IMG/VR virus record: IMGVR_UViG_3300050137_000053
Location: 1-25,718 of that record
DNA: 25,718 bases
Direction: 5' to 3' (one strand)
DNA from: a virus
Below, one piece after another: positions 2,000 through 17,983 of this stretch (its first letter is position 1; every line of letters starts with the position of its first letter). The position numbers and the translations under genes are program-made. Under the pieces are notes generated by a model. It saw only the letters and a program-made list of their open reading frames with translations, was not told where the DNA came from and did no database searches.

Positions 2000-2544
2000 T
2001 GCCCGCCGTCACCCTCAAAGATCGCCAGAAGATCAACCACGAATTGAAGACCCTCGGTTTCGGGGCCCTGGAAGATCGCAATTTGTACGCCCAGATTGCG
2101 ACCCTCTATCCAACCCATGAAGCGTTCCGCGGTCTGCTCATGTCCACTGCGCCCGCGGAGCGGCGAAAAGCCTATGAATGCTTGAAGCCCCACCTTTCGT
2201 TCACGCCGCGATCGCTCGAAGATTACGAAATGGAAGTGAAGCAGAGGGCGGAGCGGGAGCAGTGGGACGTTTGGGATGGTTCGGCCTTCCCGAAGCCGTT
2301 CAAGCCTGGGGAAATCAAGAGCGAAGAGCATCGATTGGCAGAGGCAGCAACTGAGGCAATCAAACTCTCTGAAGCCAAGGGATTTCTGACGCTTGAATGT
2401 GTTCGATGTACCCGCGAACAAGGTTATTCCGGTAAAACTCGCAAAGCAGCATTCAAAGATGCGCACCGCGACGGCTGGCGGGCGAGTGAACATCCGCCGG
2501 AAATGCTCTGTCCGGCCTGCGCTCCAAAAACCATCGTGCAATGA
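1999..2544 (+). CDS. Hypothetical protein with C-terminal zinc-ribbon motif
   Basis: A 181-residue protein translationally linked to both neighbours: it starts on the TGATG overlap at 1999 and ends on the ATGA overlap with the portal start at 2541. The first 100 residues are helical and charged. The last 50 carry CVRC near residue 133 and CPAC near residue 173, the spacing of a four-Cys zinc ribbon. Such zinc knuckles often bind nucleic acid or stabilise small domains. No family name is assigned. The tight link to the portal suggests a packaging or connector accessory role, which is inference. Confidence 0.8.
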   Translation: MPAVTLKDRQKINHELKTLGFGALEDRNLYAQIATLYPTHEAFRGLLMSTAPAERRKAYECLKPHLSFTPRSLEDYEMEVKQRAEREQWDVWDGSAFPKPFKPGEIKSEEHRLAEAATEAIKLSEAKGFLTLECVRCTREQGYSGKTRKAAFKDAHRDGWRASEHPPEMLCPACAPKTIVQ

Positions 2545-4718
2545 AACCCCCCGAACCCAAAGAGATCAGGGAAGCCTACGCCGATTACCGTTCGGAGTGG
2601 CAGGACATTCGCGAGCAGGGCCGCCTCGATATGCAGTCCATCAGCATCGAAGGCCCGTGGACGGCGGAAGACCGCGCCCAAAGGAAAGACGCTGGCCGCC
2701 CCTGCGTGCACCTCGACCAGATCAATCAATTTCTCAATCAGACCATCGGCAACGTTCGCAAAAGCAAGCGCTCGGTGAAAGCCATGCCCAAGGGCGATGG
2801 CGCCAACGACAAAGACGCCAAGAATCGTTCAAACCTCATCATGGGGATCGAGGAACGCTCGCAGGCCCAGCCCGTTTACTTGAACGCTTTTGAAAGCATG
2901 ATTGAGCGCAGCTATGGCTTCGCGGTGATTCGCACCGAGTACAAGGATGACGACAGTTTCGACCAGGAGATTCTCGTCAAGCCGGTGATGAACCCGGATT
3001 GCGTACTCCTCAATCCCACCTACAAACAGCCCGACGCTTCCGACGTTCCCGACGGCTTCCTTTTGGAACTCGTTCCGAAAAAGGAATTTAAGCGCCTTTA
3101 CCCCAAGGCGAAGATCACCGACTTTACGAGCGATGCCGATCCCCATCTCTCCGACTGGATCAAAGACAAATTCGTGCAGCGTGCCGAGTATTGGATGGTG
3201 CAGCACGAGACTGACACTCTGTTGCTCGTCGAAACCAACAAAGGCCCGGTTATCTTTCGCGAAGACGAGTGGAAGGCCGCGCAGGAAGCCGGAATCAAGG
3301 GGACAGTCAAGCGTGACCGCAAAATCCAGATCCCCAAAGTTGTGCAGTACCTGACCAACGGTTTCGAGATTCTCGACGATGTTCCATGGGCCGGAACGCG
3401 CATCCCGATCATCCCTTGTTTCGGGCCGGAGCGTTGGACCACCGAAGGCGGCAACAGCAAGCGCGAACTGCTCTCCATGGTCCGTTTCGCTCGCGATCCG
3501 CAGATGCTTTATGACTTCCTCGCCACCCAGGAGTGCGAAGAGGCGGGCATGGTGCCCAAGGTGCCGTTTATCGGTTACAAGGGCCAATTTGAGTCGGATG
3601 CCGAAGTTTGGGAAGAGATCAATAAAGTTCCTCATTCGAGGGTGCAGGTTGATGCGATGATCGAGGGCGTAACCGGGCAAGTTCTCCCGATCCCCACGCG
3701 CCCGCAATACGAACCTAACTTTCAGCAGTACGAGCTGGCGAAAGACTCTGCCGGCCGTTCTCTGCAAGCCGCGATGGGCATCACTCCCCTCCCCGACGCT
3801 GCCCAACGTAGGAATCAGAAATCCGGTGTGGCCCTCGACAAAATCGACGACATGGAATCGCTCGGCGCTTTCCACTTCGTGGACCGCTATGAGAACTGCT
3901 TTTTACACAACATGGGCTGGCAGATCAATGAATTGATCGAACCGATCCTCGACACTCAGCGCGAAATGCCCGTGACCCAACCCGATGGCTCGCGCAGCCT
4001 GGTGCATGTCATCGGGAACACCTCGCACCCGATTGACGACCAAGGTGCTTATAACGTGCAGGATGTTCCCGAGGACCACATTCACACCGGCAAGGGCGAT
4101 TTCGATGTAACCATTTCGACCGGGCCGAGCTATCAGTCGGAACGCGAAGAGCAAGCGGCATTCGTGGATCAACTGATTGAGAACATGCCGAATATGCCGC
4201 AGGCCGGAACCCCGGCGGCGAAGGTGCTCGCGCTCGCCATTCGCATGCGGCCCGACCTCGGACCCATCGGCCAGCAGATCGCCGAAGTCTTCGACCCGCC
4301 TGACCCATCGAATCTTCCGCCCGAGGCGAAAGCCGTCGTCTCTCAGTTGCAAGCGCAGTTGCAGCAAGTGCAGCAAGAAGCCGCCGGTCTACACGCTGAG
4401 CACGCCGGGAAAGTGCTCGAACAGCAGACGAAATTGTTACTCCAGCAGATGAAGGAAGATGGTGACAACCAGCGCGCGCAGTTGGCGAACGACATCAAAG
4501 TTCTGATCGCGGAAATTACCGCCAAGAATCAGAACGCCGCGCAAGAGATGGAGATGTACAAAGCCTTCTGGCTGGAAAACCACGGCGCTGCCCACGAAGC
4601 CGGGATGCAAGCCGCCGAACACGAGCACGCGCAAGGGTTAGCGGATCAGCAGGCTACTTTGCAGGCGCAGACGCAGGATCAGGATAATCAGGAGCAGTCG
4701 CAACATCCAGGATCGTGA
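2541..4718 (+). CDS. P22-like portal protein
   Basis: A 725-residue protein, the same length as P22 gp1 as I recall it. Portal proteins form the dodecameric ring at the capsid vertex through which terminase packages DNA and to which tail factors bind. The N-terminus (DYRSEWQDIREQGRLDMQ, then a GPW turn and a conserved RPCVHLDQINQF-like segment) and the following VRKSKRSVKAMP stretch match the P22-type portal family. From about residue 590 the protein becomes a long Gln/Ala/Glu-rich coiled coil, equivalent to the helical barrel at the P22 portal C-terminus. The start overlaps the upstream stop (ATGA). The C-terminal 21 codons overlap the convergent minus-strand gene at 4654-4923. Confidence 0.92.
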   Translation: MKPPEPKEIREAYADYRSEWQDIREQGRLDMQSISIEGPWTAEDRAQRKDAGRPCVHLDQINQFLNQTIGNVRKSKRSVKAMPKGDGANDKDAKNRSNLIMGIEERSQAQPVYLNAFESMIERSYGFAVIRTEYKDDDSFDQEILVKPVMNPDCVLLNPTYKQPDASDVPDGFLLELVPKKEFKRLYPKAKITDFTSDADPHLSDWIKDKFVQRAEYWMVQHETDTLLLVETNKGPVIFREDEWKAAQEAGIKGTVKRDRKIQIPKVVQYLTNGFEILDDVPWAGTRIPIIPCFGPERWTTEGGNSKRELLSMVRFARDPQMLYDFLATQECEEAGMVPKVPFIGYKGQFESDAEVWEEINKVPHSRVQVDAMIEGVTGQVLPIPTRPQYEPNFQQYELAKDSAGRSLQAAMGITPLPDAAQRRNQKSGVALDKIDDMESLGAFHFVDRYENCFLHNMGWQINELIEPILDTQREMPVTQPDGSRSLVHVIGNTSHPIDDQGAYNVQDVPEDHIHTGKGDFDVTISTGPSYQSEREEQAAFVDQLIENMPNMPQAGTPAAKVLALAIRMRPDLGPIGQQIAEVFDPPDPSNLPPEAKAVVSQLQAQLQQVQQEAAGLHAEHAGKVLEQQTKLLLQQMKEDGDNQRAQLANDIKVLIAEITAKNQNAAQEMEMYKAFWLENHGAAHEAGMQAAEHEHAQGLADQQATLQAQTQDQDNQEQSQHPGS

Positions 4719-4923
4719 AACCGTCGCGGATTAAGTACTGTTTCGGGAACTTAACTTTGATCGTCTCGCCGATTGCGAACTTGCGCGAGAACTCAACAAA
4801 CCGCGTCTCGTACTTTCGACACGATAGGCACTCACGGTATTCGTCGCCATAGGCAAAAGCGCCCGTCTGCTTGTTCCAGCCGTTCCAGATGTGGCCTAGG
4901 AAAAAACATACAAGTCGTGTCAT
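4654..4923 (-). CDS. Zinc-motif protein fused to a coat-like segment
   Basis: An 89-residue minus-strand ORF between portal and scaffold. Residues 6-35 have the C-x4-H plus CxxC pattern (Cys6, His11, Cys32, Cys35) of small phage zinc-binding proteins. Residues 49-68 then match residues 41-60 of the coat protein encoded at 6099-7343 at 15 of 20 positions, counted by hand (shared core TI.VKFP.Q.LIRDG). The DNA is clearly diverged between the two, so this is not a recent duplication or a simple assembly error. The last 20 residues are Pro/Ala/Asp-rich and antisense to the portal end. A run of G (ttgggggc) before the ATG is a poor ribosome-binding site. It may be an accessory gene that captured a coat fragment from a related phage, or a recombination scar. 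The zinc part looks genuine; whether the fusion is expressed is open. Confidence 0.6.
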   Translation of the reverse strand: MTRLVCFFLGHIWNGWNKQTGAFAYGDEYRECLSCRKYETRFVEFSRKFAIGETIKVKFPKQYLIRDGFTILDVATAPDYPDPASAPAK

Positions 4924-4979
4924 GCCCCCAAGTTTAGCTCTTCTCGCCCCCGCAGCGTAAAGCGGAAAAAAGGAAAATC

Positions 4980-6098
4980 ATGAGCACACCCGCCGTCACC
5001 CCGGAAGCCCCGGCAGTTTCCACCGCGTCGCCCGAACGTGCAACCGTTCGGCAGAGCGAGCACGCCACCATCCCCTCGACCGACAAGCATTATCGTTTGA
5101 CCGGAGAGATGCCGGCAGCGAAGCCCGCTGAAGCAGAGCCGAAGACTGAGACCACTCAAGTTCCGCCAGTGAAAGAGGGAGAATCGGCGACTCCCGGTGC
5201 ATCCGAAATCGCCGCGGGCTCGGAACCCGCGAAACCTCCGCAGAAGACAGCAGCCACCGGCGAAAACCGCTGGGCGAAGATCACTCGCGAAAATCGCGAA
5301 CTGCGCGAACGTCTGGAACGCCTCGAAAAACCTCCTCAGCGTGAAACTCAGCAGGAATCGCAACCTGCGATCGAGGCGAAACCGAAAGCCAATCTCAAGC
5401 CCAAGATCGACGACGTAGACCCGAAAACCAACCAGCCGAAGTTTAAATCCTTTGCCGAATATGAAGAGGCAAAAGATCAGTGGCTAGTGGAAGAGGGCGA
5501 ACGCCGGGCAGTGGAGAAGTTTTCCCAGACCACGCAAGCGAGCGAGCAGGATCGACAAAAGCAGGCGATACAGCAGGGTCTGACCGAGCACGTCACAAAA
5601 CAGCGTGAAGTTCACCCGGACTACGACGCCACCATGGAAGCCGCGTTGGGAACGAAAGAAGCCGACGGCCGTTCTGCGATTTTCTATCAGGACGGCTCGC
5701 ACTTTGATCGTTTCTTTCTCGCGCACCCGGATCGCGGTGTCTCGTTGCTGTACCACCTCGCCAAAAACATTGACGATCCCGCCATTCGAGAGATTTTTGC
5801 GCGCAACCCGCAAGGCACCGATTACAAGCTCGGCCAGATCGAGCAGATTTCGCGCCTCGCCGTGGTTGCGCATAGCGTGGACGCCGCCACAGCGAAACCC
5901 GTGACGAACGTGAACGCTCCGACCGAAATCACTTCTGTGAAACCCGTGACCCAGGCCCCTCGGCCTCCCCACCAAACTTCCGGCAAGGGAGCGGTGGGAA
6001 AAGATCCCGTCGCCGAGGCCCTCGAAACCGGCGACTCCGAGAGCTATATACGCGAAGAAAACCGCCGTGCTCTCGAACGTCGCAAAAAAGGAAAATAA
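4980..6098 (+). CDS. Putative scaffolding protein
   Basis: A 372-residue, highly charged protein directly upstream of the coat gene, the standard place of a scaffold. Scaffolds direct coat assembly into a procapsid and leave before or during packaging. The first 95 residues are Pro/Ala/Thr/Glu-rich and probably disordered. Residues 95-125 form a helix (RWAKITRENRELRERLERLEK). Residues 141-180 carry the segment IDDVDPKT...AEYEEAKDQWL typical of scaffold-like phage proteins. The C-terminal residues 340-372 are basic and helical (IREENRRALERRKKGK), like the coat-binding end of P22 gp8. Usual P22 scaffold length is about 300. There is a good ribosome-binding site (aaggaaaa) and the coat ATG follows the stop immediately. 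A diverged copy of residues 141-176 occurs in the minus-strand gene 17406-17567. Confidence 0.82.
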   Translation: MSTPAVTPEAPAVSTASPERATVRQSEHATIPSTDKHYRLTGEMPAAKPAEAEPKTETTQVPPVKEGESATPGASEIAAGSEPAKPPQKTAATGENRWAKITRENRELRERLERLEKPPQRETQQESQPAIEAKPKANLKPKIDDVDPKTNQPKFKSFAEYEEAKDQWLVEEGERRAVEKFSQTTQASEQDRQKQAIQQGLTEHVTKQREVHPDYDATMEAALGTKEADGRSAIFYQDGSHFDRFFLAHPDRGVSLLYHLAKNIDDPAIREIFARNPQGTDYKLGQIEQISRLAVVAHSVDAATAKPVTNVNAPTEITSVKPVTQAPRPPHQTSGKGAVGKDPVAEALETGDSESYIREENRRALERRKKGK

Positions 6099-7343
6099 AT
6101 GGCCAACCAGTTTCTCAACACTTCCTGGATCTCGATGGAAGTGCTCCGCAACCTCAAGAACGCCTTGAAGGTGGCGGAGTATTTCAACACCGACTGGGAG
6201 AAGGACTACAACAAGACCTTCGCCGTCGGCACCACCATCCAGGTCAAATTCCCGCAACAGTTTCTGATCCGCGACGGCCTCGGCTACAACCCGCAAGGCA
6301 TCGACCGGATTTCAACCACCATCTCGCTCGACCAACCTTTCGGCATTGATTTTCAGTGGGACGATTACGAGGCGGCAGTCAAGGCCGAACACTCCGAAGA
6401 GGAAATCAAGGAGCAATACCTCGAACCGGCAGGGGTGCAGATCGCGCAGGAAATGGATTCGCGCGCTGCCTTCTTCGCCAAAAACAACACCTCGCAGATC
6501 GTCGGCATTTTGGGATCGGACCCGACCTCGGTCAAGTTCCTTGACGATGCCCGCGCCCGGCTTTTGCAAAAGGCCGCGCCTCCGGGAAAACGCTGCGCCT
6601 TGGTCTCGTCTTCAATGCAGACCAACTCCATCAACACGCCCGTGACTTCACTCTTCCAACCGAGCGATGAAATCACCATGGCGTTCAAGGAAGGCGCGTT
6701 GGGGCGGCTGAAAAGCTTCGACGTTTTCGAGGAGCAGTCGCTGTACTCGCAAACCGCCGGAACTTGGGCGGGAGCAGTTACCGTTCACGGCGCCGGCCAG
6801 AGCGGAACCTCGCTTGCGATTAGCTGCACCGCCAGCGACACCTTCAACCAGGGCGATAAGTTCTCCATTTTGAACGTCAACATGGTAAACCCGCGCACCC
6901 GGAGAAGTCCCGGACCGCTGACCCCGCAGACTTTCACCGTAACTCAGTCCTTGGTTGGCTTGGGTGCTGGCAACGCGGCCGATGTGCTGCAAATCCTGCC
7001 CGCGATCTACGGGCCGGGCTCGCAGTACCAGAACGTCGATAATTTGCCCGCGGACACGGCGGCGATGACGCTCTTCCCCGGAACTCCATCCCCGAACGGC
7101 GTGACCGGCACCATCGGCCTCGCTCTCACCAAGCAGGCTTTCGCCATTGTCGGAATGCGTTTCTATCTGCCGAAGGCGGTCGAAGCGCGTTCGCAGGCGG
7201 AAGACAAGCAGACCGGCATTCCGGTTCGCTTCGTCAAAGCCTGGGACCCGGTTCGGTCCATGCAAATCCACCGTTTTGACACTTGCTGCGGTTTCGGCAA
7301 TCTGTACCAGGACAACGGTGCAGTAGCGATTCTGGGAGCCTAG
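6099..7343 (+). CDS. P22-type major coat protein
   Basis: A 414-residue protein, close to the roughly 430 of P22 gp5, and the major capsid subunit of the HK97 fold. Supporting features are a helical N-terminus (EVLRNLKNALKVAEYFN), the strand segment FAVGTTIQVKFPQQFLIRDG at 41-60, a long acidic helix (DYEAAVKAEHSEEEIKEQYL), and a central region around residues 215-290 with Gly-rich strands and the NQGDKFSI / VNPRTRRS pattern of the P22 insertion domain. The end (IHRFDTCCGFGNLYQDNGAVAILG) also fits this family, which often closes with a DILYG- or GV-type strand. The start follows the scaffold stop with a good ribosome-binding site. Part of the gene (6390-6426) is repeated in inverted form at 192-228. 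Confidence 0.92.
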   Translation: MANQFLNTSWISMEVLRNLKNALKVAEYFNTDWEKDYNKTFAVGTTIQVKFPQQFLIRDGLGYNPQGIDRISTTISLDQPFGIDFQWDDYEAAVKAEHSEEEIKEQYLEPAGVQIAQEMDSRAAFFAKNNTSQIVGILGSDPTSVKFLDDARARLLQKAAPPGKRCALVSSSMQTNSINTPVTSLFQPSDEITMAFKEGALGRLKSFDVFEEQSLYSQTAGTWAGAVTVHGAGQSGTSLAISCTASDTFNQGDKFSILNVNMVNPRTRRSPGPLTPQTFTVTQSLVGLGAGNAADVLQILPAIYGPGSQYQNVDNLPADTAAMTLFPGTPSPNGVTGTIGLALTKQAFAIVGMRFYLPKAVEARSQAEDKQTGIPVRFVKAWDPVRSMQIHRFDTCCGFGNLYQDNGAVAILGA

Positions 7344-8312: not shown

Positions 8313-9179
8313 ATGGACCCAGAGAACTCGCCTTATCCGCTGCAAGAAAACTCCTTTGAACCGCGCACGAATGAGATTTACCCGCCGGGCGTAGACCTTG
8401 CCGAGAAAACCGTTGATCCGCGCACGGGCGATTACCGCAACGACCAGATTCCGGCCGTGATGCCGGTTACGATAGCAGTTGGCGGCACCGGCTATGCCAT
8501 CAACGACACCGGCACGTTTGCCGGGGGAGTCATCTATAAAGTCACCGCCATCGGAGAAAACGGAGCGGTCACTGCTGTTTCCATTTCTCCTCAGCATCTT
8601 CGGTTGCTCAACGACCGCTCTCGCGCCAATGTTGCAACCACAGTGACCACGGGCTCGGGAGATGGCACTCTCAGGCTCAACCTCACCGCCCGGGATTCTG
8701 GGCAGAGGGTACTCCACGCCAACCCGTTTTTCTTGTCGCGTACCAAGGCGACTCATTACGGCGACCAGATTCAGTTCGCCACGCATCCCAACCGATCGTT
8801 ATCCATCTTCGACGCCACGGTGCTTTGCGCCTGGCTTGCTTTCCTAATTGACGACGACAAGGCGGTCAGCGTCGAACTCGACAACTTGCGCCAGCGGCCC
8901 TATGTCAAAGCGGTGGCTGCGCCCCATGAAGTAGAAAACATGGACATGTCGCTGGGTAATGCTCCGATCCCCATCGACTACTCGCAGACGGGAACGCCAG
9001 CGCCGGTCGAAAACGAGAACTTTGACAACAGCCCGGTCGTTATGCCCGAAACAATCGCAGTCGCAGAGGCAAAGGCGACACAGGAAAGGAACAATGAAAA
9101 AACCATCGCGCAAACTCAAAGTCAAGAAAGTAACACCGCTCAGCAAAGGCGTGCACCACGTCGAACTGGAACTGTATAA
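8313..9179 (+). CDS. Virion protein with Gly-rich beta repeat
   Basis: A 288-residue protein. ATG 8313 is chosen because aggagaatatcgcc precedes it; an in-frame upstream start at 8277 would lie inside the terminator. Residues about 50-120 form one copy of a beta repeat (GTGYAINDTGT ... VTAI ... TTVTTGSGDGTL.LN.TA) that occurs twice in the gp10-like protein at 10612. Inside this copy, about 8592-8627 aligns better with the other copies in the +1 frame, which suggests two compensating indels. The later part has a helical segment (IFDATVLCAWLAFLIDDDKAV) and a Gln/Arg-rich disordered tail. The last 86 bases overlap the next gene in another frame. Function is unknown; a head or tail accessory role is inferred from the shared repeat and location. 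Confidence 0.78.
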   Translation: MDPENSPYPLQENSFEPRTNEIYPPGVDLAEKTVDPRTGDYRNDQIPAVMPVTIAVGGTGYAINDTGTFAGGVIYKVTAIGENGAVTAVSISPQHLRLLNDRSRANVATTVTTGSGDGTLRLNLTARDSGQRVLHANPFFLSRTKATHYGDQIQFATHPNRSLSIFDATVLCAWLAFLIDDDKAVSVELDNLRQRPYVKAVAAPHEVENMDMSLGNAPIPIDYSQTGTPAPVENENFDNSPVVMPETIAVAEAKATQERNNEKTIAQTQSQESNTAQQRRAPRRTGTV

Positions 9180-9780: not shown

Positions 9781-10608
9781 ATGCCGATTTCCCCTCCAGT
9801 TACGCCCCCAGCCCCGCTCGGTTACAGGGTGCTCGATCTCTGCGCCGACGCTCTGATTGAGATCGGGGCGCTCTCTCCCGGAGAGGTTAACAATGTTCCG
9901 CCGGATGAAGCGCAGTGGGCTTTTCGCAAACTCAACGACTTGATCGACGAGTGGAGCGCGCGAAAAGCCTATGTCTATTCCTATGCCTTTCTAGAATACA
10001 CATTGGTCGCCGGGCTGAGTCCGCACACCATTGGGCCTTCTGGATTAGCGACCTTTTCGACGGCGGGTTTGCCGCGTCCGGTGCGCATGGAATCGGCGGC
10101 GCTGCTGCTGAATGTTGGTACGCCTGGAGTCGTCGATCAGATCATGAATGTCCGCGATCATGTCTGGTGGGCGTTGAATCAGGTCAAGCAGATTCAGACC
10201 AACATCCCGACCGACGTTTTCTATAATCCGACGTTCCCGGATGGCCAACTGAATTTTTGGCCCGTCCCAAACGCTCAATATAAAGTGCGTTTGCAGTTTT
10301 GGACCGCGATCTCGCAGTTCGTCACTATCCAGGACAACATCGGCGGACCAGGTGGACCGGGAACTTTGCCCCCCGGTTGGCGCAATGCGTTGAAATTGAC
10401 GCTCGCCGAAAATCTGCTAAGCGGATCGAATCGCGGGGAGAATCCCAGTCTGACCATAGCGGCGCTTCGGGCGCGGAAAGCCGTGCTCGGGAATAACGAC
10501 AAATCGCCGCGCATGAGCACGCAGGATTTCGGGATGCCGCAGAGCGGGAAGTCGCGGCCCGACTTTAACTGGGCGACTGGTGGCGGTGTTGGCGGGCCTC
10601 CCGAGTAA
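9781..10608 (+). CDS. P22 gp4-like tail accessory factor
   Basis: A 275-residue protein. In P22, gp4 binds the portal ring after packaging, closes the channel and starts tail assembly. Here the N-terminal helix region (VLDLCADALIEIGALSPGE, then AQWAFRKLNDLIDEWSARK) has the pattern of this head-completion family: a helix, a Gly turn, and the L..L...W helix. The later part (FYNPTFPDGQLNFWPVPN, LPPGWRNALKLTLAENLL) is also typical of the longer members in environmental podophages. P22 gp4 is about 166 residues, so this is a long version. It lies directly upstream of the gp10-like gene, as in P22. The C-terminus is Gly/Pro-rich and probably flexible. Confidence 0.85.
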   Translation: MPISPPVTPPAPLGYRVLDLCADALIEIGALSPGEVNNVPPDEAQWAFRKLNDLIDEWSARKAYVYSYAFLEYTLVAGLSPHTIGPSGLATFSTAGLPRPVRMESAALLLNVGTPGVVDQIMNVRDHVWWALNQVKQIQTNIPTDVFYNPTFPDGQLNFWPVPNAQYKVRLQFWTAISQFVTIQDNIGGPGGPGTLPPGWRNALKLTLAENLLSGSNRGENPSLTIAALRARKAVLGNNDKSPRMSTQDFGMPQSGKSRPDFNWATGGGVGGPPE

Positions 10609-10611
10609 TTT

Positions 10612-12582
10612 ATGAAAGCCTGGGGCTTTTGCGGTCCGACTTACATGAGTCAGTCGCCGAACATCGACGACGAAGACGCCATGAACTGCTATTGCGAGCA
10701 GTCGGAATCGCCCGCTGCGAAAACGGCCATCGCTCTACTGCACACACCGGGGAAAAAAGTCTTCGCTTCGATGGCTGGCGAGGCTTCGATTCCCGGTCTT
10801 TTCACCGTCAACGGGCGCACCTTCGCCGCCGCCTCGAAGCTCTATGAATTGACCGGCGCCGGTCCGGTTGTCCGCGGCGTGCTGGCGGGTTCGCCAGTGG
10901 CCCCGCCCATGATGACGGCGAACGAAACCCAGTTGGTGATTCTCGCGAACGGCAATCTCTTCGTGATGACCTACAAGGGGGCCATCACCGCCGCAGCCAT
11001 CATCACCGTGGGGGTGATTTCAGTTGCCACGGTAACAGCCGGTCACGCGGGAACCGGGTACGCCATTAATGACACCGGCACGATCGCTGGGGGCGCAGGC
11101 GGAGTCTACACCGTAACCGCCATCACCGGTGCTGGCCCCACCGGGCCGGTTGAAACGGTTGCCATCTCGCCGGGATCGACCGGCTACTCGACCACGCCGA
11201 ATCTCGCAACCACGGTGACCACCGGGTCGGGCGATGGCGCTCTGGAGTTGAATATCACCGCGGGTTATGCTGGGCAGAATTACGCGCCGGGCGATCAGGG
11301 AACGGTTGATGGCTCGGTTTCAGGATCTGGCGCAACTTACACCGTGACCGCCATCGGGCCGGGCGGCTCGGTTGTCGGCTTCAAATTGACGCCGGGCTCG
11401 GGCTATGTGGTCGAGAACAATAACCCGACCGCGATCACGAGCGGAAACGGCGACGGCACGCTTCAATTCAACATCACCGCCGTTCAGGACAACAATTTTT
11501 ACCCGGTGGACATGACCCAGTTCAACGGGCTGATCGCGCAGATCGGCTTCGTCGATGGCTACGTGATCGCCACCTTGCAGAATTCCCACACCTTCCAGCA
11601 ATCGAACCTCGAAGACGCGACGGTGTGGAACGGCCTCAACATCTCGACCATTTCCTACTTCCCGGACAACATCACGTCCATGATCTGTGACCACCGCACC
11701 ATTGTTTTCTTCTCGGCCAAAAAAGCGGTCGTCTATTACAACTCCGGGGCTGGATTCCCTGTCTTCATTCCGATTCAGGGGGCGTTTATTGAGACTGGCT
11801 CGGGCGCGGCCTTCGCCACGGTGCAGATCGATCCCAGTGTGTTTTGGCTTTCACAAGATGACCGCGGCGCTTTGATCGCCAACCGTTCGCAAGGCTACAA
11901 CGCGCAAAGAATCTCCACCCACGCAACCGAGCTAGCTTGGCAGCAATACGGGGTCACGTCCGACGCGGTGGGCTGGAGTTATCAGGAATACGGTCACTCG
12001 TTTTGGGTGCTTAATTTTCCGAGTGCGAACGGCGGGGCGGGTGCGACTTGGGCTTACGACCTTTCCACCGGATATTGGGGCAAGCGCGGTTTCTACAATT
12101 CAGTCACGGGAACTTACACCGCGGATCGTGCCATGTGCCATACCTTCAATTTTGAGAAGCATCTTGTCGGCGACTGGGCTACGGGAACGGTCTATGAGCT
12201 TTCGAGTTTGTTTTACGACGACTTCGGCAACGCCATCCGCGGCTACCGCCGATCGCCGACCATCTCCGACGAAAACAAGTGGATTTATTTCAAACAGATC
12301 GAACTTGATGTGGAAGTAGGTTTGGGCGCGCAGCCGCCATTGCTTGACGGCGACGGCCAGCCTCGCCCTCCGCAAGTGATGCTCCGCTGGTCAAACGACG
12401 GCGGAAAAACCTGGTCGAATACCTACACCCTGAGCGTGGGAGCGCAAGGCGGCTATGACACGCGCGTCATTATGCGCATGCTGGGCCGGGCGCGCAAGCG
12501 AGTTTGGGAAGTATCGTGGTCGGATGCCTGCCCATGGAGATTCGCCGACGCTTATTTAGAGGCGGAACCGCAGATGGCCTAG
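10612..12582 (+). CDS. P22 gp10-like tail hub protein with beta-repeat insertion
   Basis: A 656-residue protein. P22 gp10 (about 470 residues) joins gp4 in the short tail and stabilises packaged DNA. Family hallmarks are TPGKKVFA and FTVNGRTFAAASKLYEL near the start, the VDGYVIATLQNSHTFQQSNLEDATVW region after residue 300, VFWLSQDDRGAL, and the GYNAQRISTHATE ... GHSFWVLNFPSA ... TWAYDLSTGYWGKR series. Between residues about 130 and 293 there is an inserted pair of Gly-rich beta repeats (each ending TSGxGDGxLxxNITA), homologous to one in the gene at 8313. Removing the insert leaves about 490 residues, near the P22 length. The stop at 12580-12582 overlaps the convergent minus-strand stop on the palindrome CTAG. 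Confidence 0.88.
   Translation: MKAWGFCGPTYMSQSPNIDDEDAMNCYCEQSESPAAKTAIALLHTPGKKVFASMAGEASIPGLFTVNGRTFAAASKLYELTGAGPVVRGVLAGSPVAPPMMTANETQLVILANGNLFVMTYKGAITAAAIITVGVISVATVTAGHAGTGYAINDTGTIAGGAGGVYTVTAITGAGPTGPVETVAISPGSTGYSTTPNLATTVTTGSGDGALELNITAGYAGQNYAPGDQGTVDGSVSGSGATYTVTAIGPGGSVVGFKLTPGSGYVVENNNPTAITSGNGDGTLQFNITAVQDNNFYPVDMTQFNGLIAQIGFVDGYVIATLQNSHTFQQSNLEDATVWNGLNISTISYFPDNITSMICDHRTIVFFSAKKAVVYYNSGAGFPVFIPIQGAFIETGSGAAFATVQIDPSVFWLSQDDRGALIANRSQGYNAQRISTHATELAWQQYGVTSDAVGWSYQEYGHSFWVLNFPSANGGAGATWAYDLSTGYWGKRGFYNSVTGTYTADRAMCHTFNFEKHLVGDWATGTVYELSSLFYDDFGNAIRGYRRSPTISDENKWIYFKQIELDVEVGLGAQPPLLDGDGQPRPPQVMLRWSNDGGKTWSNTYTLSVGAQGGYDTRVIMRMLGRARKRVWEVSWSDACPWRFADAYLEAEPQMA
11047..11490 (+). 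repeat. Two tandem beta-repeat units inside the gp10-like gene
   Basis: Two consecutive units, about 11047-11265 and 11266-11490. Each has a GxxYAxxDxGT-type opening, a VTAI strand, a PGSxGY turn, and a closing TSGxGDGxLxxNITA strand. A third related unit is at about 8470-8690 in another gene. The units are diverged at DNA level, so the duplication is old or the units were acquired separately. Confidence 0.75.
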
Positions 12583-12836
12583 CGAATGATGATTGTCTTT
12601 CGTCGTTTCGGCTCGTCAAATGAGCGTGTCAATAAATCGGCTGTGTCGCCAAGGTTCCATCGATCCCAACCTCTTGATGTTCGGATTTCTTGGGACTCCA
12701 CGAAATCGATTGGGGCGACGTGATCGGCAAGGGCACGTCTGTAATCCTCTTCTGGTTCGTCAGCGAGTGGTTGCCGGAATCGATGAACCTCGGCGGCCTG
12801 TTTTAGTGAATCGAGATTTGGAAAATCCATCGGCAT
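12579..12836 (-). CDS. Small acidic/basic minus-strand hypothetical protein
   Basis: An 85-residue minus-strand gene filling the gap after the gp10-like gene; the stop codons of the two convergent genes overlap on CTAG. The sequence looks like a genuine folded small protein: MDFPNLDSLKQAAEVHRFRQ, an acidic step (DEPEEDYRRALADHVAP), IDFVESQEIRTSRGWDRW, then a basic tail. I associate this FPNLDSLK...DYR.ALADHV pattern with small unnamed phage proteins, but cannot name a family or function. The plus-strand ORF in the same place is Arg/Cys-rich and looks like a shadow. Its placement fits an accessory gene inserted between tail genes. Confidence 0.68.
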   Translation of the reverse strand: MPMDFPNLDSLKQAAEVHRFRQPLADEPEEDYRRALADHVAPIDFVESQEIRTSRGWDRWNLGDTADLLTRSFDEPKRRKTIIIR

Positions 12837-17405: not shown

Positions 17406-17567
17406 CTATTCTTCTGCTGGGTGTAAGGCTTCAAATCTGCGAATAGCTTCTTCGATGAGCCATTCGTCTTTGACTTCCTCATACTCGGCGTAATTTGCGA
17501 ATCTCAGCTTGCCGGTCTTGGGGTCGATGTCATCGATTTGTGGCTTGCGGGTGAGAGTTATGAACAT
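17406..17567 (-). CDS. Scaffold-segment mimic, 53 residues
   Basis: A 53-residue minus-strand gene, ATG at 17565-17567 and TAG at 17406-17408, with a modest ribosome-binding site (agtagggtaaatc). Residues 9-44 match residues 141-176 of the scaffold encoded at 4980-6098 at 22 of 36 positions by hand count: IDDxDPKT, AEYEExKDxWLxEE and a following RR are shared. The DNA has diverged, mainly at third codon positions with some replacement changes. Only this central scaffold piece is present, not the basic C-terminus. It is the last gene of a three-gene minus-strand set, 11 bases after the Rap1a-like gene. It may interfere with or tune scaffold assembly, or be a leftover of a second scaffold. The ORF is clear; its function is speculation. 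Confidence 0.72.
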   Translation of the reverse strand: MFITLTRKPQIDDIDPKTGKLRFANYAEYEEVKDEWLIEEAIRRFEALHPAEE

Positions 17568-17578
17568 GATTTACCCTA

Positions 17579-17983
17579 CTACTGCTCTTTTGCCACGATT
17601 GGCTTTGCCACAGGGGTCGATGTCCACAATCCCACTTCGCCGGTGGCAAGGATGAGTGAGGTAATCGCCCCTTTGTTCAGAACTTCTGGGTGATTGTTTA
17701 CGTATTTTAGAAATACGCGAATGACTTGATCTGCGCTCACGCCGTCTGCCCAGTGGAATTCCGAGATCGTGCCAGTATCTTGAACGGTGGTCCCTTGTGC
17801 CGTTTCGGTGAAAGCAATCACGTATCCAATACAGAAGCCAATCTCGTCAGGGTTGAGCGCGCCGCCTGCGTCGGCGATGACATAGGCATCGCAGTTTGTT
17901 TTAAGTTTGGCTGTTGAGTAAGAGGTAGCCAATGCGCTACTCCAAGCGATGATGCACAGACAACCGACTAGCAAACTTTTCAT
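17579..17983 (-). CDS. Secreted Rap1a/Tai-like protein
   Basis: A 134-residue minus-strand protein with a good ribosome-binding site (aaaggagagaagtc). A Sec signal peptide covers residues 1-19 (cleavage after SSALA). The mature part resembles the Rap1a/Tai immunity-protein family: Cys31 and Cys51 in an FCIGYVIAF motif, then GVSADQVIRVFLKYVNNHPEVL followed by a hydrophobic helix. In Serratia such proteins sit in the periplasm and neutralise amidase effectors of type VI secretion. Two Cys usual in the family (in CxP before GVS and in the final FPC) are absent here, so any disulfide pattern is reduced. Its start overlaps the stop of the zinc-ribbon gene. Base composition appears lower in GC than the flanking virion genes. 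It may protect the infected cell or block peptidoglycan-active entry factors of rival phages; this is inference. Confidence 0.75.
   Translation of the reverse strand: MKSLLVGCLCIIAWSSALATSYSTAKLKTNCDAYVIADAGGALNPDEIGFCIGYVIAFTETAQGTTVQDTGTISEFHWADGVSADQVIRVFLKYVNNHPEVLNKGAITSLILATGEVGLWTSTPVAKPIVAKEQ

Follow-up and report, generated by a model that had tools for sequence, protein, structure and literature searches.

The capsid-like segment belongs to an intact small gene

The window analysed here, the whole 25,718-nucleotide stretch of the IMG/VR virus record IMGVR_UViG_3300050137_000053, carries a P22-like portal, scaffold and coat gene in succession (Table 1) and, on the minus strand beside the portal stop codon, a short reading that resembles part of the coat protein. 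The locus raises the question of whether this reading is debris of a rearrangement, as the term inverted coat fragment in an earlier note on this DNA might suggest, or part of a gene with a use of its own. In a six-frame translation self-comparison, 15 of the 25 residues of the segment were identical to coat residues 36–60 (E 3.5e-7). A recount returned the 15 of 20 residues that had been reported as common to the stretch and coat residues 41–60, and the divergence in DNA was likewise found, the segment being 75% complementary to the coat gene over 59 nt. The similarity stops at 4720, close to the portal stop at 4716–4718, as had been noticed. The word fragment is misleading, since an intact 89-residue open reading frame (ORF) has the stretch at its C-terminal end, as one module of a small gene that belongs to a recurring class and is not dead. 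The ORF scored 91 against the coat, a score equalled by none of 5000 shuffles, the best of which reached 55, and it matched a profile of the coat N-terminus with an E value of 8e-9 when 18,127 ORFs of the window and 62 loci were scanned. The full-length coat fold is absent from the ORF, in which coat residues 36–60 alone are represented.

The origin of the segment from a coat gene is borne out by the coat profiles; the further proposal that a separate, related coat gene was the donor could not be demonstrated, the window's own coat ranking fourth among 75 coats compared with the segment (score 91; best 95). A short motif common to unrelated zinc proteins, the other source of similarity to be considered, is ruled out, because the coat profiles match and the same segment occurs in proteins that have no zinc head.

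Such a head is found at the N-terminus of the window's ORF, with the pattern C-x4-H...C-x2-C. It matches phrog_2670 weakly (E 0.029) and over residues 3–42 only, the coat-like part lying outside the match, and its four cysteine and histidine residues are invariant among five relatives. The structure model of the 89-residue protein is of low confidence (mean pLDDT 61.7), the head being its best-predicted part, whereas most of residues 46–80 fall below a pLDDT of 50 and the coat-like part has no predicted structure by itself. The ORF had no match in Pfam at E 1 and so none above the curated score of DUF1660 (PF07874), for which two relatives, L033 and L027 (L-numbers denote loci or contigs of related phages compared with the window), scored 16.0 and 25.4 bits, respectively, against a cut-off of 21.4 that only the latter passed. 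Five zinc-ribbon-like heads were recovered at E <1e-10 from the window and the 62 loci collected first; each is encoded on the other strand from the coat gene. Two of the proteins, L029 8613–8906 (minus strand, 40% identity) and L033 8135–8422 (minus strand, 37% identity), are homologues at the same locus, between portal and scaffold, in which the zinc-ribbon-like head is likewise followed by the coat segment, and two others, L027 and L038, retain a short remnant of the coat segment at most. Used as a single-protein query, the window's ORF had no match in viral contigs or in 50,697 phage records, and the L033 protein matched its own contig alone; the aligned zinc-ribbon heads contain no part sufficiently conserved to serve as a query.

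Table 1. Coordinates of the features discussed; positions refer to the window unless a locus is named.
Feature	Position	Strand	Basis
P22-like portal	2541..4718	+	PF16510 E 6.6e-95
Cassette, absent from L001/L002 (48 other bases there)	about 4686..4927	.	blastn alignment breaks
New portal C-terminal codons and stop, cassette-supplied; antisense to the C-terminus of the small ORF	4686..4718	+	L002 comparison
Remnant of the old portal end, CAA GTT TAG	4929..4937	+	identical to L001/L002 portal end
89-aa ORF, zinc-ribbon-like head and coat-like segment	4654..4923 (stop codon included)	-	homologues at same locus
Zinc-ribbon-like head, residues 1-42 (C6, H11, C32, C35)	4798..4923	-	phrog_2670 match, invariant C/H, model
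Coat-like segment (= coat residues 36-60)	4720..4794	-	self-comparison, coat N-terminus profile, shuffles
Coat residues 36-60, counterpart of the antisense segment	6204..6278	+	six-frame self-comparison
Scaffold	4980..6098	+	phrog_8865 E 2.2e-11
P22-like coat protein	6099..7343	+	PF11651 E 9.6e-23; phrog_283 E 1.1e-50
53-aa antisense ORF with scaffold-like segment	17406..17567	-	E 1.5e-13; 0/5000 shuffles
66-aa antisense ORF with weak coat C-terminus-like segment	1410..1610 (stop codon included)	-	shuffles, coat scores
Sense genes with segment like coat 345-402	L004 4505-5026; L029 4348-4872; L025 4735-5274; L015 4232-4741; L036 1867-2235	+	

A cassette that rebuilt the portal end

The boundaries of the insertion, which the earlier note had proposed to locate by comparison with related phages, were obtained from L001 and L002, two contigs that are identical wherever they overlap and whose portal and coat proteins are 96% and 98% identical to those of the window. 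The blastn alignment of the window with L002 stops at 4685 and picks up again at 4928. The L002 portal has a longer tail that ends in Gln-Gly-Gln-Val-stop; in the window, a new tail and a new TGA lie inside the cassette and the old CAA-GTT-TAG follows downstream. The suspicion that the portal C-terminus had been rebuilt at this junction was therefore right: its last codons were replaced by the cassette and the old stop was left behind.

Bases 1–295 of the window look like a chimeric contig end, being a patchwork of near-identical copies of 295–385 and 828–929 that includes, at 189–228, a 98% inverted copy of coat positions 6390–6429, and a similar assembly artefact might be suspected at the portal. 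At 4686–4927, however, the coat similarity is just 75% in DNA and the ORF is intact, homologues occupy the same place in independent contigs and the remnant of the old portal end is neat, so that a chimera at this locus is hardly credible.

Other small ORFs of the window lie antisense as well. The scaffold-like segment of the 53-residue ORF (17436–17546) is 62% identical to 5397–5507, and the ORF returned no relative when used as a query; it adjoins a 134-residue antisense ORF (17579–17983, minus strand) that matches the Rap1a immunity proteins (PF18602; 30.6 bits against a cut-off of 27.7). The score of the ORF at 1410–1610 against the window's own coat was reached by 27 of 5000 shuffles, its best coat being that of L051 (score 70), and this stretch is absent from L002, which has other sequence in its place. 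An 85-residue antisense ORF (12579–12836, minus strand), devoid of a PHROG match, lies in about 271 bp that L002 lacks and that form a clean insertion. On the sense strand, small genes upstream of the portal carry, near their C-terminus, a segment like coat residues 345–402 at five loci; capsid imitation extends beyond antisense genes. Two different late proteins of the window, finally, contain one repeated module (GTGYAINDTGT..., at 8454–8705 and 11020–11481, plus strand).

Relatives with a twin-arginine-like head

Besides coat proteins, the profile of the coat N-terminus matched ten of the 18,127 ORFs, all of them antisense, and several of the ten share a second type of head, M-x-RR-x-F-L ... 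IP-x-x-RVWSFP. Its best score was 16.1 bits against a cut-off of 16.7 for the twin-arginine model TIGR01409, and 12.6 against 22.7 for PF10518; the heads are thus under both curated cut-offs and are hence named only twin-arginine-like. A search of viral contigs with this head yielded 53 loci and, overall, 77 ORFs, 55 of them unique. The tested heads were absent from named phage and plasmid records, and among genome contigs they occurred at one place only, L118, where a phage-like region lies within a metagenome bin that carries the label Betaproteobacteria.

Strand could be assigned relative to a P22-type coat gene for 39 of the 55 unique ORFs, the fetched DNA of the other 16 having no such coat in view, and all 39 lie opposite to it. 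In two contigs with other capsid types, L089 and L117, the small gene and the capsid gene are on the same strand. When 60 small genes were placed (the 55 twin-arginine-like and the five zinc-headed), 26 lay between a connector gene like window 9781–10608 (g1/g15) and a gene like 10612–12582 (g5/g16), six between the g2 and g1 genes, and four in the gap between portal and scaffold, namely those of the window, L029, L033 and L106, the last being twin-arginine-headed. The twin-arginine-like head is present in 14 of 22 long contigs; an integrase is encoded by 13 of the 22, because of which many of these phages look temperate. A diversity-generating retroelement was rejected, PF00078 being found in none of the 22 contigs.

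About half of the payloads match virion proteins, mostly the coat

The part that follows the head, or payload, was compared with 42 gene-family profiles from these phages (55 payloads, one of them of only 17 residues, and 220 shuffled or reversed controls; Z 2310). At E <1, 29 of the 55 payloads and none of the controls matched a virion-protein family; 23, 20 and 14 did so at E values of 0.1, 0.01 and 0.001, respectively, with no control matching throughout. Twenty-four of the 29 contain coat pieces and five match the connector, the portal or other late-gene families, mostly weakly; the remaining 26 of the 55 had no match among the 42 profiles. Among 1323 unique antisense ORFs, 28 had a profile match, 22 of them to the coat, one family of the 42. 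Of the remaining six, the one in L089 is an ordinary gene: where a contig had no P22-type coat, its orientation was taken from the small gene, and the orientation so assumed was wrong for L089.

The coat pieces concentrate in four segments, residues 1–65, 98–125, 230–275 and 370–409, while residues of about 145–225 and 280–360 are unused, yet on average similarly conserved. After removal of the near-duplicate L015 (leaving 24 segments) and of six further similar segments, the 18 collapsed segments were clustered both with respect to uniform placement (p 0.0004) and to position-dependent detectability (p 0.0008). In a coat model built from 24 sequences, whose best matches are the Sf6, CUS-3 and P22 capsids, the used segments contain the N-terminal helix, the strand preceding a low-confidence loop (52–70) and the beginning of the long helix, as well as strands within 236–257 and the hairpin at the C-terminus.

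Constant tails beyond the payloads, considered as a third module, were dropped because they are antisense readings of the 3' end of the neighbouring connector gene; for the same reason some of the pairwise payload matches (15 of 55 at E <1e-3) are tail matches, and the profile test was preferred. A terminase-motif look of the payloads of L006, L066, L076, L083, L084, L086 and L090 was confirmed neither by PHROGs (L066 not included) nor by the local profiles.

Capsid type, selection and expression

Compared with permuted coats, 26 coat segments from 23 contigs were more similar to the coat of their own contig (0 of 20,000 permutations). The preference was no longer clear when six contigs with divergent coats were removed (p 0.10, 20 segments), so within the main coat clade the payloads neither clearly prefer nor avoid their own coat, which ranked first for three of the 26 segments and had a median rank of 19 of 75. 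In the two phages with other capsid types the payload is again a piece of the phage's own head protein: that of L089 matches its major head protein (E 4e-6; phrog_1357) and that of L117 its head protein (0 of 2000 shuffles; phrog_14242, E 8e-4). The payloads therefore track the capsid type rather than the individual coat, and the anatomy of the class is a head joined to a capsid-related piece of matching type.

This matching, together with the scaffold segment in one antisense ORF, is what would be expected of a helper in the phage's own morphogenesis, whose capsid-like tail would dock the protein on the phage's coat or scaffold, where it would help to package cargo or to control quality. We regard such a role as improbable: the genes are patchy, being absent from L001 and L002 and, for the twin-arginine-like head, from part of the long contigs, the low ranks of the own coat are ill explained, and an antisense placement suits co-expression with the late genes poorly.

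The heads evolve as translated protein, with mean differences of 9.8, 6.9 and 18.0 per 30 codons at codon positions 1, 2 and 3 (1326 pairs of 52 heads), and the excess at third positions is also significant between the heads of the window and L029 (p 0.0014). Among payloads, the L010–L066 pair differs at 6, 2 and 16 sites at the three positions (p 0.0009). The window's payload differs from its own coat at 7, 6 and 13 sites (p 0.06 for the third-position excess), the excess not being significant against L033 (p 0.11) or L029 (p 0.28), so that any purifying selection on it is putative. The payloads could be a by-product of recombination, in which small genes, zinc-ribbon or signal-like, captured DNA of virion genes and came to read through into it, the likeness to the coat being without function. 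The tails that read neighbouring genes in antisense, the many payloads that lack a family match and the low conservation of payloads in the zinc-headed trio (5 to 9 identities of 24 to 27) would fit such an origin, which, payload conservation being modest, we consider unlikely though deserving of weight; the fact that three phages have this one segment after the zinc head, the selection on the L010–L066 pair and the non-random coat segments, with capsid much over-represented, speak against it.

No sigma-70-like promoter was found in 4600–5200 with the consensus sigma-70, which may not be that of the host, and no clear ribosome site precedes the 89-residue ORF. Shine–Dalgarno-like sites are not enriched upstream of the class (11 of 52 twin-arginine-like ORFs against 154 of 595 background antisense ORFs).

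A possible role in blocking head assembly

The temperate look of these phages, the antisense placement and the precedent of the prophage protein Tab (see below) make interference with the assembly of same-type heads the most likely function, although we propose it tentatively. The coat-like segment would form the C-terminal end of a moron, a small accessory gene, lying antisense in a P22-like late operon; in it, a head (zinc-ribbon-like in the window, usually twin-arginine-like in relatives) carries a short peptide akin to the capsid protein of the matching type. Being antisense to the late operon, the gene could be expressed from signals of its own in lysogeny, while the late genes are off. 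If a phage of the same type superinfects, the peptide might then bind its coat or scaffold, offering coat- or scaffold-derived contacts that spoil head assembly, and the head would set the stability or location of the small protein. The product would thus be a resistance factor itself of viral origin, acting in the manner of Tab with a capsid-derived bait.

The intact ORF, its counterparts with head and coat segment in the corresponding gap of L029 and L033, and a cassette with clear bounds relative to L001 and L002 argue for this interpretation. So do the opposite-strand placement of all 39 assignable relatives, the excess of coat pieces among payloads and antisense ORFs, their clustering in four coat segments, the agreement of payload with capsid type and the codon pattern of the heads. 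Against it count the twin-arginine head, which, if it exports, would take the peptide out of the cytoplasm, where heads assemble, and the need for the phages to avoid poisoning themselves. The missing promoter and Shine–Dalgarno signals, the 26 unmatched payloads, the same-strand placement in L089 and L117, the weak signal of selection on the window's payload and the lack of a clear preference for the own coat in the main clade count against it as well.

The peptides might instead be decoys for a host defence, imitating a capsid element that a sensor of the CapRel kind detects and so blunting or pre-empting the response. CapRel is known to be triggered by a major capsid protein (PMC9712102), and the payloads keep recognisable capsid motifs and track capsid type; yet these hosts have no known sensor of this sort, the payloads draw on four separate coat segments rather than one, and a short activating peptide could equally trigger the sensor, which leaves a decoy rather improbable.

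If blocking of head assembly is generalised, temperate phages would own a modular kit of constant heads and swappable virion-protein pieces whose capsid-derived peptides make for immunity to phages sharing the capsid type, as a prokaryotic equivalent of capsid-derived restriction factors; we find this broader idea somewhat doubtful. Were it true, phages would possess a ready-made library of inhibitors of capsid assembly, tracking capsid type, whose short coat segments would reveal the vulnerable contacts of HK97-fold heads, and a class of unannotated small antisense genes would be accounted for. The corresponding search rule is to look in late operons for antisense ORFs that locally resemble the coat of the same capsid type.

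Comparison with known systems

The closest parallel is Tab, the tail assembly blocker of the Pseudomonas prophage JBD26, a protein of 83 residues, encoded on the minus strand within the late operon with a promoter of its own, that blocks virion assembly of related phages (PMC10884400). The window's gene is likewise small, on the minus strand and within the late operon. In contrast, Tab targets the tape measure protein, bears no similarity to proteins of known function and is accompanied by an anti-Tab gene, whereas the payload of the window is capsid-related.

The small prophage proteins of DUF1660 and phrog_2670 share the C...GH.W...C..C pattern of the window's head, but the window's protein stands apart from them in its lack of a Pfam match and in a coat-like part that the phrog_2670 match leaves out. 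With the P22-like coat (PF11651, phrog_283) it shares a homologous segment of 25 residues, not the capsid fold. In the proteins submitted, none of the Pfam, PHROGs and NCBIfam models extended over the whole head-and-payload architecture, and the portions of the open-licence literature consulted contained no description of proteins that join a head to a capsid fragment. The novelty is that of architecture; the mechanism may be a variant of Tab-like interference. In eukaryotes, the restriction factor Fv1 derives from the capsid of an endogenous retrovirus and comprises a near full-length gag. The idea of a virus-derived capsid piece directed against related viruses would be common to both, while the class described here consists of short peptides borne by various heads.
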